A DNA stretch of 64,000 bases from Propionispora vibrioides (GTDB taxonomy: Bacteria > Bacillota > Negativicutes > Propionisporales > Propionisporaceae). How positions within the stretch are numbered: position 1 is the first letter of the stretch; each line of letters starts with the position of its first letter. The DNA lies in the NCBI RefSeq assembly GCF_900110485.1, contig NZ_FODY01000006.1, positions 62,001-126,000 on the forward strand, written 5' to 3'. Under the pieces are notes generated by a model. That model ran no database searches. It saw only the letters and a list, made by a program, of their open reading frames with translations, and was not told where the DNA came from. Of this stretch, positions 12,595-33,399 are shown piece by piece. The translations under genes and the position numbers were made by a program.

Positions 12595-14649
12595 TTACCC
12601 CTTTTTCTCCCAAAGAATATTCTTTTCAATCCCATATTTTTGGGCTTTAGCGGCTACCGTTTTGTGAGTAAGCCCCAGCGCCTTAGCAGCGGCATTGTAA
12701 CTTCCATACTTTCTTAAGGCCATTTGAATAATCTGCTTCTCGTATTCCTCCCAGGGAAGTATACTTTCCTGGGAAAAAGCATGGTCGATCAAAGTTGTGG
12801 CTGATGAAACATTTTCCCGCAAATAGATAGGAAGGTCACGGCTTTCTATATATTTGCCATCGGTTAAGGTTATGGCTCGTTCAATGATATTTTCCAGTTC
12901 CCGTACGTTGCCTGGCCATCGATACTGTAGCAACACCTCCAGTGCATCCTGTCTAATTCCTTTTATTTCTTTGTTGATTTCACCATTTATTTTATCAATA
13001 AAATGTTCAATCAACATAGGAATATCTTCCTTACGCTCCCGCAGCGACGGCAAAAGAATGGGTATGACGTTCAGGCGGTAATATAAATCTTCCCGGAACT
13101 CACCAGCAGCCACCATCTCCTCCAAATTCCGGTTGGTCGCCGCAATAATCCTGACATCCACCTTAAAGATATCTTCGCCACCCACCCGGCCAATTTCCTT
13201 CTCCTGAATGACACGCAGCAGCTTGGCCTGCATGTTTTTTTCCATTTCCCCGATTTCATCCAAAAAGATAGTGCCTTTATGGGCCAGTTCAAACTTCCCA
13301 AGTTTCTTTTTTATGGCACCGGTAAAAGCGCCCCGTTCATGACCAAACAGTTCGCTTTCCAGCAAAGTGGCCGGTATGGCCGCGCAATTCACCCGGATAA
13401 ACGGTCCACCGGCCCTGATGCTGGCGCAGTGAATGCCCTCCGCCACCAGTTCCTTCCCTGTGCCGCTTTCCCCGCGGATCAACACCGTGGCCAGCCCTTC
13501 AGACGCTTTGGCAGCAACCGCCAGGGCATCGAGAGCCTTGCCGCTACGACCAATAAATTTGGCAAAAGCACGGGCCGGTCTTTTAATACGCCATAGTTCC
13601 TGTTCCAGATATTCAGCTCTGGCTGAAACGCGGTTTAATTTTTCCACCAGACCCTGCACCTCGGAAACATCTTTAACAATCGAAACGGCGCCGTCCACTT
13701 CGCCGTCCACGACAATGGGATTTACATTAGCCACAATGGTGACGCCATTGTGTTTGGTACTAATGCTGCCCAATACCTGTTCCCCCGTATTAAGCACCTT
13801 GTTACGGGCGCCCTTGGGCGATATAATCTCAATGCTGTGATTGACAAGATCTTCTCTCGCTTCACCGACAATTCGCAAGTAGGACGGATTTACATAGGTA
13901 ATATAGCCGTCTTTATCCAATACGCAGATACCGTCATGCACCGACTCCAGGACCAACTGCAGCTTTTCCTTTAACTGCTTGACTTCCCGCAGCTCTCCCG
14001 CCGTTTTTTCCATCGCCGAAATATCCTCAAAAATGGCGACTACACCCTTTGATTGACCGTTGACGATAATCGGGCTGCGGTTGGTCACAATAATGGAATT
14101 GCCGATCAATTGGCGACAGCCCAACTCAGGTTCCATCTTTTTATTGACAATATGCATCCGGGAACCGGGTATGATCTCACAAACCGAATTGCCGATTGCC
14201 TCCACTGCGGCAATTCCCATGATTTTTTCAGCCGCCGGGTTAAAAATAGTAATAATATCGTTTTCATCGGTAACCACCAGACCATTGGCCATGCAGCTAA
14301 ATACCTGTTCTGCCGTAAAGGTATTTTCATGGATCAGGTTGTCCACCTGCGTAAACGTGCGAAAATCGGCAATCTGAAAATCGCTCTCCAGAAAACCGAC
14401 CATTTCATTCACCGCCGCCTCAGCCAAAGCCCCCTCGCCGGATACTTGAACAACATCGCCTACCTTAATCCGCAGCGATACAATCAGCATTAGACTGCTG
14501 GCTGTCACCTTCTCCCGGCCCGGGCAGTGCAAATATAACGGTACGTTATATTTGTTCTTTATTTCATAGGATTTTTGCACAACCATCGCGGCAACTCTGG
14601 CATGGAGCCCGCTTTTATGCTTAATAACAGCTTTTTTTATAATATACAA
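12595..14649 (-). CDS. Sigma-54-dependent transcriptional activator with N-terminal HPr domain and two PAS domains
   Basis: Domains in order: HPr-like (about 1-92, active-site-like H16 in [10 protein letters not shown], serines at 51-52 near the HPr Ser46 position), PAS 1 (about 112-215), PAS 2 (about 228-335), a short coiled segment, AAA+ sigma-54 interaction domain (about 365-600) with Walker A GESGTGKE at 393-400, the GAFTGA loop at 440-445 and Walker [10 protein letters not shown], and a Fis-type HTH at about 640-680. GAFTGA shows a true sigma-54 activator. The retained histidine suggests phosphorylation by enzyme I or HPr as the input; that is inference. It lies directly upstream of ptsHI on the same strand. 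The PAS ligand is unknown. Confidence 0.9.
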
Positions 14650-31433: not shown

Positions 31434-31474
31434 CCAAAAAAGGCTTGAGTTTATGTTGGAATAAACTCAAGCCT
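31434..31474 (-). terminator. Rho-independent terminator of the PEPCK-like gene
   Basis: 14-bp perfect stem AGGCTTGAGTTTAT, 6-base loop, then TTTTTTTGG on the minus strand, about 40 bases after the stop. Confidence 0.92.
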
Positions 31475-31515: not shown

Positions 31516-33291
31516 TTATTTTTTTCGCGGCGGTAGGCTTTGAATCATAGCAAGTAAGCCTTTCGCCGATTCTTCCGGTCCCTTTTGTTCCCAGCCTTTA
31601 ATACTTAAGCGAGTGCGCATCTGCCCCACAAACACATCTTTGGCAAAAAATTGATCAAAATATCTTTGGGCAATAGCCTCATGGGTTTCCCGGTACTGCG
31701 GCGGTCCAAACACATTAGCAAAATACGTATGCACCAATCCGCTCGAAGTTGTCGTCCCCTTGCTCATAACGGCGCCTGAACGGAATACATTAATGGCTTC
31801 GGCCGCCGACGTAAACCGCTCAATGACCGGATGGTCCTCATCAATTTCCTCAAAGTTATTGCAATATAGCACAAAATCAATCTTATGCCCTTTAATTACA
31901 TTCTCATAGGAAGTAACCGGCAGGATGGTTCTGGCATTTTTTTGGCTCGGATTCATAATAATAGCCCGGTCAAGCTGGCCGAACGCATAGCCCGGGTTCA
32001 GATCATCCAGCCGCACGTAAGCGCCGATTTCCGTACCATAGGCAAGAATATCGCCGTCTTCACCAATAGCCAGCGACCCCATATCATCGGCAACAACCAC
32101 AATATCCTGAATAAACTCCTGACCTAATACCCGGAAGGCCTCCAGTGTTTCCGATTTGCCGGCGCCGGTATCTCCCATGACCAGAATATTAGCCTGTTTA
32201 TCACCCTTTAACACAATCCTGAACATAGCGCCATGGAAAGGCATCTTGCCAGCCCGCATCATGCGGATATTATGCAACGTTAACACCATCTTTTTCAAAT
32301 AGCCGAAATAACCGAACTGATCCCGGTTGGGAATGGCCGCAACAAACATATCATTCTCTTCATCGTCATAAAATACAGTCGGCAGCGGTGCCAATTCGTC
32401 AATGGCATTGCCGGGAACACCACACAAATAAACAGCGTCCGGTTTTTTAGCCAAGTCAGCGTCATTGGCCAATTCAAAGAGATTACACATGGAGAATCCC
32501 AAATCATAAAATTGTTCATGGAAATAAACATGAATCAACAAGGGCCCGACTTTAGCCGGGAAACAAAGCCATTCGTCAGGCTCAATGGTAACAAGATCCA
32601 ATGGATTTTTATATACCCGTTCAAATTTCCCGGTCCGTTTATTCATCGGCGGATCGAGTACTAACGGGGGATTCAATAGAATTTGACGGATAACGGCAAT
32701 CTTATCCAGCTTCTTATACAACTCACCGGTATAGGGAATGGCTTTGCGCTTGCCAATGGCAGCCAGTTGTGCCCCGGCTTTAACCTGGCGGAATATGTTG
32801 GGATGCTTGCCGGCAACATTGTCCTGCAAATCCCGGTATACTTTACGTACCAAATTGGTAAGCTTCTCAACCGTCGCATTAAAGGTCCGGTAAGGACGTT
32901 TATCAATATCATCATTTTCGGAAGTGCATACAACGAATCTGTCAAAATTGCGCCAGTAATTATACAGGTATTGGATAAATTCATTGAGCAGCATCGGGTT
33001 TTTAGCAAACTGCTCCGAACCCTTAACCACATGCGTCACCAGATCAATTTGCATTTTGGTCGCGTAAACTAATGTATCGATAAGAACCTGAACATCCTCA
33101 TCGGTAATATTGTTTTTATCAGCGAAAATATCCAGCAAAATAGAATTTCGCTTTTCCAGATCACGGATAGCTAGTTTTAAAACCCGGCTAAATAAATCAC
33201 TGGACAACATTTCTTCGCCAGTATCACAAATTCTGTCATTCACTTTAATAATTACTTTTTTTTCCAATATCTTACTAGAAATAACATTCAT
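31516..33291 (-). CDS. P-loop protein related to PEP carboxykinase and HPr kinase, function unknown
   Basis: 591 residues from the ATG behind AAGGAG. The N-terminal 340 residues match nothing I know. Then come PFHGAMF, a P-loop VMGDTGAGKSE (about 371-381) and VVVADDMGS. These follow the HprK order His-Gly, GxSGxGKSE, xVADD. The C-terminal part resembles ATP-dependent PEPCK: NARTILPVTSYENV, then SGAVMSKGTTTSSGLVHTYF and NVFGPPQYRE, where PEPCK has its SGYTAKxAGTE and FSxCFG motifs. I see no convincing oxaloacetate/PEP site, so a kinase-like or regulatory ATPase is as likely as a carboxykinase. Single gene with its own promoter and terminator, between an RND operon and a TetR gene. Confidence 0.7.
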   Translation of the reverse strand: MNVISSKILEKKVIIKVNDRICDTGEEMLSSDLFSRVLKLAIRDLEKRNSILLDIFADKNNITDEDVQVLIDTLVYATKMQIDLVTHVVKGSEQFAKNPMLLNEFIQYLYNYWRNFDRFVVCTSENDDIDKRPYRTFNATVEKLTNLVRKVYRDLQDNVAGKHPNIFRQVKAGAQLAAIGKRKAIPYTGELYKKLDKIAVIRQILLNPPLVLDPPMNKRTGKFERVYKNPLDLVTIEPDEWLCFPAKVGPLLIHVYFHEQFYDLGFSMCNLFELANDADLAKKPDAVYLCGVPGNAIDELAPLPTVFYDDEENDMFVAAIPNRDQFGYFGYLKKMVLTLHNIRMMRAGKMPFHGAMFRIVLKGDKQANILVMGDTGAGKSETLEAFRVLGQEFIQDIVVVADDMGSLAIGEDGDILAYGTEIGAYVRLDDLNPGYAFGQLDRAIIMNPSQKNARTILPVTSYENVIKGHKIDFVLYCNNFEEIDEDHPVIERFTSAAEAINVFRSGAVMSKGTTTSSGLVHTYFANVFGPPQYRETHEAIAQRYFDQFFAKDVFVGQMRTRLSIKGWEQKGPEESAKGLLAMIQSLPPRKK

Positions 33292-33370
33292 CCATACATC
33301 ACTCCTTTTGGTCTTCAGCCTTATCAAATTCCTGCATATTGTAGAGTCAAGCATACATCCCTATCTTTCC

Positions 33371-33399
33371 AGTGTAGCATATTTTACAATAGTTCTCAA
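33371..33399 (-). promoter_or_regulatory. Sigma-A promoter of the PEPCK-like gene
   Basis: Minus strand TTGAGA, 17 bases, TACACT, about 80 bases before the ATG. The -35 overlaps AGTTCTCAA, whose inverse TTGAGAACT recurs at 33495-33503. Nothing else is seen in the 320-base gap except the TetR terminator. Confidence 0.5.

Follow-up and report, generated by a model that had tools for sequence, protein, structure and literature searches.

A PEPCK-fold protein of Propionispora vibrioides with an HprK-type P-loop, probably a divergent PEP carboxykinase

The stretch of DNA that we analysed (the window, 64,000 nucleotides of Propionispora vibrioides) encodes a 591-residue protein that is homologous to phosphoenolpyruvate carboxykinase (PEPCK): residues 181-588 adopt the PEPCK fold and almost all catalytic residues of that enzyme are conserved. 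The gene represents a family that has no recognised Pfam home and has been missed by automatic annotation. We consider the protein probably to be a divergent PEP carboxykinase, most likely one that catalyses the PEPCK reaction; oxaloacetate/PEP as the substrate, the nucleotide used and the direction of flux we infer. Its role is probably metabolic rather than the regulation of sugar uptake. PEPCK governs carbon flow between the acids of the TCA cycle and glycolysis, and a widespread clade of such enzymes overlooked by automatic annotation, in genomes that otherwise appear to lack PEPCK, would correct the metabolic models of many anaerobes.

The gene and its family

The reading frame starts with an ATG at 33291 and ends at 31516 (Table 1). 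A gene for a TetR-type regulator lies on one side of it and a pair of MFP/RND efflux genes on the other, and the promoter-like site and terminator-like hairpin that enclose it suggest a single-gene unit. No catabolite-control sites above chance were found near the gene. The same gene order, with one additional ORF, was present in the close relative Propionispora sp. 2/2-37, and beyond close relatives the family has no conserved neighbour genes. Neighbours elsewhere included a pabB-like gene in Omnitrophota and, in some Bacillota, a gene for a DUF2294-like small protein, both named by reading their sequences.

Table 1. Features of the PEPCK-like gene and its product, in positions of the window
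Feature	Position	Strand	Basis
CDS, divergent PEPCK-like protein, 591 aa	31516..33291	-	ORF, RBS, homologs
Promoter-like site TTGAGA-17-TACACT, TG before second hexamer	33371..33399	-	consensus match only
Ribosome-binding site AAGGAG	33302..33307	-	ahead of ATG at 33291
N-terminal extension, residues 1-180, mostly helical	32752..33291	-	models, alignment
PEPCK N-terminal-lobe-like region, residues 181-345	32257..32751	-	structure matches; profile from ~residue 271
R219 in N-x-R-x-G-x-F, candidate equivalent of E. coli PEPCK R65	32635..32637	-	invariant; not aligned by MAFFT
Y328-x4-K333-K334 = E. coli PEPCK Y207, K212, K213	32290..32310	-	alignment, motif
PEPCK C-terminal (P-loop) domain, residues 346-591	31519..32256	-	structure matches, alignment
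H353 (in HGA) = E. coli PEPCK H232	32233..32235	-	alignment
P-loop GDTGAGKSE, residues 373-381, kinase-1a, HprK-type ending	32149..32175	-	alignment, motif
D402-D403 (VADD), kinase-2 = E. coli D268, D269	32083..32088	-	alignment
E421-x-G423-x-Y425-x-R427 = E. coli E282-G284-Y286-K288	32011..32031	-	alignment, motif
N452-x-R454 = E. coli N331, R333	31930..31938	-	alignment, motif
SG-x4-KGT, residues 505-513, lid-like loop (PEPCK SGxxxKxxGT)	31753..31779	-	homolog alignment
Intrinsic-terminator-like hairpin, 14 pairs + T-tail	31441..31474	-	consensus match only

The window protein matched no PEPCK or HprK model in Pfam, with PF01293 giving no match at E<=1, and had no significant match among PDB sequences. 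Weak signals towards PEPCK came from the NCBIfam model NF006821, which matched residues 328-432 (20.2 bits, cut-off 369; E 1.9e-4), and from PF01293, which weakly matched 3 of 22 family members (best E 3.9e-4). Direct homologs were easily found: 30 of them, with 38-85% identity to the window protein, came from Bacillota, Omnitrophota, Chloroflexota and Eremiobacterota. The closest is from Propionispora (85%), and those at 54-57% identity belong to two Omnitrophota, one Anaerolineaceae and one Eremiobacterota MAG. A sample of 398 genomes of the host's phylum contributed 24 further carriers, falling into two groups at ~55% and ~42% identity, and all four genomes searched from the host's own order had a homolog. 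No relatives were found among phages and viral contigs. The initial annotation had called the protein an orphan, which is apt for a gene without conserved neighbours or a Pfam family, but not for one with so many homologs.

Two weak matches were rejected: in genome G325 an ORF of 1030 aa that lacks the family motifs, and in G367 an HprK-like protein of ~300 aa. In another genome (G001, L031:1330-1638) a decayed remnant of the 3' end of a family gene lies beside a carA-like gene; the congener G302 retains a full-length homolog, which points to recent gene loss in G001.

Fold and active site

Two AlphaFold models, built from six sequences, were of modest confidence (mean pLDDT 60 and 54). For both, each of the matches listed by Foldseek was a PEPCK, the best having E 2.8e-7 and prob 1.00, as was each of the 50 matches listed by VIA-align, an outcome repeated with the trimmed model. 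VIA-align superposed model residues 181-588 on PEPCK residues 2-471 with Z up to 9.7, the match to 2qf2 having Z 9.7 over 274 residues with an rmsd of 5.6. No HprK chains are contained in the VIA-align matches listed, which is not evidence against HprK likeness. In profile comparisons the family matched ATP-PEPCK with a P of 7e-6 over 101 columns, and HprK over 51 columns only, around the P-loop. GTP-PEPCK (EC 4.1.1.32, PF00821) has the same fold and gave equally strong structural matches (Z 9-10), but its profile match was weak (prob 17%), its Tyr, KK pair and His are spaced otherwise and its P-loop ends in GKTN.

As modelled, the window protein has two domains of PEPCK fold (residues about 181-588), preceded by a helical extension of 180 residues. 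PEPCK and HprK have no such extension, and within the family Y110, W113, R118, Y152, N158, R168, Q169 and G173 are conserved in it. The P-loop domain stops near the equivalent of residue 466-471 in E. coli PEPCK, so that the last ~70 PEPCK residues are missing. The ~340 residues ahead of the P-loop half had been left unassigned in the initial annotation. For residues 1-180 this still holds; structure matches begin at residue 181, and about half of that stretch is therefore the PEPCK N-terminal lobe, including Y328-x4-K333-K334, which the initial annotation had overlooked.

The ORF and all the motifs first picked out from it (HG, GDTGAGKSE, VADD, SG...KGT and FG-P, the last at residues 528-530) are present, and since they are near-invariant across 30 homologs of 38-85% identity we do not regard them as chance. 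Fully invariant over the 30 were H353, the P-loop residues G373, D374, G378, K379, S380 and E381, the pair D402 and D403, and G506, K511, G512, T513, F528 and G529. We then compared the family with ATP-PEPCK (EC 4.1.1.49, PF01293), using MAFFT without supervision to align residues 181-591 from 22 members to E. coli Pck and 13 further ATP-PEPCKs. Eleven catalytic-site residues were identical in 22 of 22 members (Y207, K212, K213, H232, K254, D268, D269, E282, G284, N331 and R333 in E. coli numbering), and four positions carried conservative changes (S250 to Ser or Thr, T255 to Ser, Y286 to Phe or Tyr, K288 to Arg). Columns invariant and identical in both sets numbered 26, against 16 in a reversed control and 8-18 in shuffled ones. 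The trimmed alignment was used because a full-length run, which regained Y207 to T255, N331 and R333, displaced the kinase-2 region.

Further likenesses to ATP-PEPCK are the two-lobe fold itself, the lid-like SG..K.GT, the FG motif and the KK-x18-H spacing, H353 and E. coli H232 both lying 19 residues past the KK pair. That spacing was found in 18 of 23 members (the others have a one-residue insertion), in 14/14 DUF4914 proteins and 13/13 ATP-PEPCKs, and in 0/5 HprK proteins; E-x-G-x-[FY]-x-[KR] and N-x-R-..P occur in every member and in no HprK. The differences are also clear. Besides its N-terminal extension and missing C-terminal residues, the window protein falls under the Pfam and NCBIfam cut-offs (PF01293 / PRK09344), has a P-loop ending in GKSE where ATP-PEPCK has GKTT, and has Arg at the K288 position. 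The RX5TR adenine pocket is not kept, the R449 and T455 positions being gaps in 22/22 members, and the R65 column was left unaligned, with the invariant R219 as the candidate counterpart.

The P-loop cores of HprK and PEPCK belong to the same superfamily fold. HprK (PF07475) resembles the window protein in having the P-loop G(D/E)SGxGKSE followed by ADD, but lacks the KK pair, the Y207 equivalent, E-x-G-x-F-x-R and N-x-R. HprK measures ~310-320 aa, and its N-domain is unrelated. The initial annotation had described a mixture of HprK and PEPCK signatures. It was right about the P-loop, which is GxxGxGKSE in contrast to the GKTT or GKTN of known PEPCKs (GKSE in 23/23 members and 5/5 HprK proteins); the remainder is PEPCK and not a chimera, with Y-x4-KK-x18-H, E-x-G-x-[FY]-x-[KR], N-x-R and both lobes. 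The structure prediction and active-site comparison proposed there as a check yielded the PEPCK fold and PEPCK active-site residues, and confined the HprK likeness to the P-loop ending. A close match to a characterised full-length PEPCK, which it had named as counter-evidence, was not found, although the catalytic residues are conserved. A PEPCK body that carries an HprK-type P-loop would be a natural intermediate and bears on the relationship between PEPCK and HPr kinase.

These residues also bear on whether the protein could be a PEPCK relative that has lost catalysis and plays a structural or regulatory part. The changed nucleotide pocket and the lack of a conserved operon would be in keeping with such a role, but down to 38% identity the members show no change at the P-loop Lys, the kinase-2 Asp pair, the KK pair, H353 or R454, implying selection for catalysis, and we think a dead enzyme very unlikely.

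Predicted reaction and relatives

The reaction that we predict is oxaloacetate + NTP <-> PEP + CO2 + NDP, by the usual PEPCK mechanism. Single-residue roles are transferred here from E. coli PEPCK, for which they are established: the P-loop would hold the nucleotide phosphates, K334, H353 and D403 would hold the active-site metal, and Y328, K333 and R454 would handle the acid and CO2. The enzyme would be distinctive in having a nucleotide pocket of its own kind together with the N-terminal extension. In this host, which has no canonical PEPCK, it could link oxaloacetate with PEP, bypassing pyruvate. Neither PF01293 nor PF00821 matched in the host genome, and two genomes of the same genus had no PF01293 match; a check for separate hprK and pckA genes, suggested at the outset, thus found hprK present and canonical PEPCK absent.

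Across the family the picture is different. Of the four carriers that are not Bacillota, three (G402-G404) had canonical PEPCK as well. Among Bacillota it was present in 13 of 25 carriers (ATP-PEPCK in 12, GTP-PEPCK in one), which is about the background rate in the 398-genome sample (ATP-PEPCK 171/398, GTP-PEPCK 48/398), so there is no pattern of displacement, and we rejected a simple replacement of the canonical enzyme, which those 13 Bacillota carriers possess. A PPDK/PEP-synthase-type domain was found in 32/32 carriers, which means that an alternative source of PEP exists. One genome (G371:C1:303219-321026) has two equal-scoring canonical ATP-PEPCK genes ~16 kb apart as well as a member of the window family.

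Coexistence with canonical PEPCK would be accounted for if the protein were a PEPCK-fold enzyme that applies the same metal and P-loop chemistry to another substrate, such as a 2-oxo or beta-carboxy acid, or acts as a plain small-molecule kinase. The altered P-loop and the K288R change in all members, the R65 equivalent and adenine pocket that were not recovered, and the existence of DUF4914 as a second uncharacterised PEPCK-like family with a GKSE P-loop fit this idea as well. However, every residue that contacts the PEPCK metal or the phosphoryl acceptor is invariant, Y207, K212, K213, H232 and R333 among them, whereas the Tyr, the KK pair and N-x-R are missing from HprK, itself a kinase of this superfamily. 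We regard action on another substrate as possible but rather unlikely. Counting against a PEPCK reaction are the GKSE P-loop, the absent RX5TR, an R65 equivalent that is a candidate only, the modest models and the ubiquity of PPDK/PEP-synthase. Because the PEPCK residues fit, but carriers show no stand-in pattern and genomic context is uninformative, we favour a divergent PEP carboxykinase with fair but limited confidence and take a different substrate as the main rival.

DUF4914 (PF16260) was above the cut-off in 39 of 398 genomes and is also found in Thermotoga maritima. Profile comparison related it both to the window family (prob 95%, 188 columns) and to ATP-PEPCK (prob 80%, 468 columns aligned). 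DUF4914 proteins (loci L118-L131) share KK-x18-H, GKSE, DDM, E-x-G-x-F-x-R and N-x-R with the window family, but lack Y-x4-KK and differ at both termini. PF16260 did not match the window protein, and weakly matched two of its relatives (in G359 with 20.4 bits, under the 25.7 cut-off). Most likely DUF4914 and the window family are sister branches within the PEPCK superfamily, which would give an unnamed Pfam family a place there; no mention of DUF4914 was found in the literature searched. A more speculative suggestion, to which we give little weight, is that the two form a third large branch of the superfamily, with a GKSE P-loop and with members that act on a substrate other than oxaloacetate in a new carboxykinase or kinase reaction in the central metabolism of anaerobes.

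Some members may already be known as PEPCK. A plasmid of Limosilactobacillus fermentum encodes a family member (AYP99509.1; 36.6% identity over 80% of the length, E 5e-92) whose annotation as 'phosphoenolpyruvate carboxykinase' is apparently automatic. L. casei and S. bovis have PCKs that have been set apart from others for an incompletely conserved ATP pocket and a Ser after the P-loop Lys (Aich and Delbaere 2007, PMC2684135). This description fits the window family, with its P-loop K-S-E and missing adenine pocket, and these divergent enzymes, which we compared by description only, may belong to it. Asanuma et al. (2010, J Gen Appl Microbiol 56:121, as given in the reference list of PMC10617382) studied S. 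bovis PCK, and its gene reportedly goes up in a ccpA mutant and when glucose is low (PMC8637274). Published S. bovis pck qPCR primers scored no better against the family than against E. coli PEPCK or shuffles, and were absent from viral contigs. Should S. bovis PCK belong to the family, then the family is already known as PEPCK in the laboratory and its novelty is smaller.

HprK, HPr and the kinase reading

A kinase role on HPr had been offered initially as a testable guess, and the window does encode HPr and a second HPr-like domain. Together with the HprK-type GDTGAGKSE and the order in which ADD follows it, this would suit a serine kinase/phosphorylase whose substrate is HPr or a protein resembling it. 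However, PF07475, which models the C-terminal domain of HprK, did not match the window protein, its HprK profile match is the short one around the P-loop, and residues found in PEPCK and not in HprK are conserved. The host has a normal HprK, encoded by a separate gene on contig C25 (G000:C25:3284-4428) that is the sole PF07475 match in the genome. HprK is absent from 26 of the 32 carrier genomes and HPr from 18 of the 32. An HPr-kinase role is accordingly unlikely, and we rejected it on the carrier distribution and the PEPCK-only residues; as an explanation of the window protein, a kinase/phosphorylase of this kind seems to us extremely improbable.

The second HPr-like domain is the N-terminal part of a 684-aa HPr-PAS-sigma54 regulator (12595-14649, minus strand), in which it is followed by PAS domains, an AAA+ domain of the sigma-54 activator type and an HTH; the gene adjoins ptsH/ptsI-like and his genes. 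The host hprK (L036) in turn adjoins a short HPr-like gene, a 93-aa frame that is possibly Crh-like.
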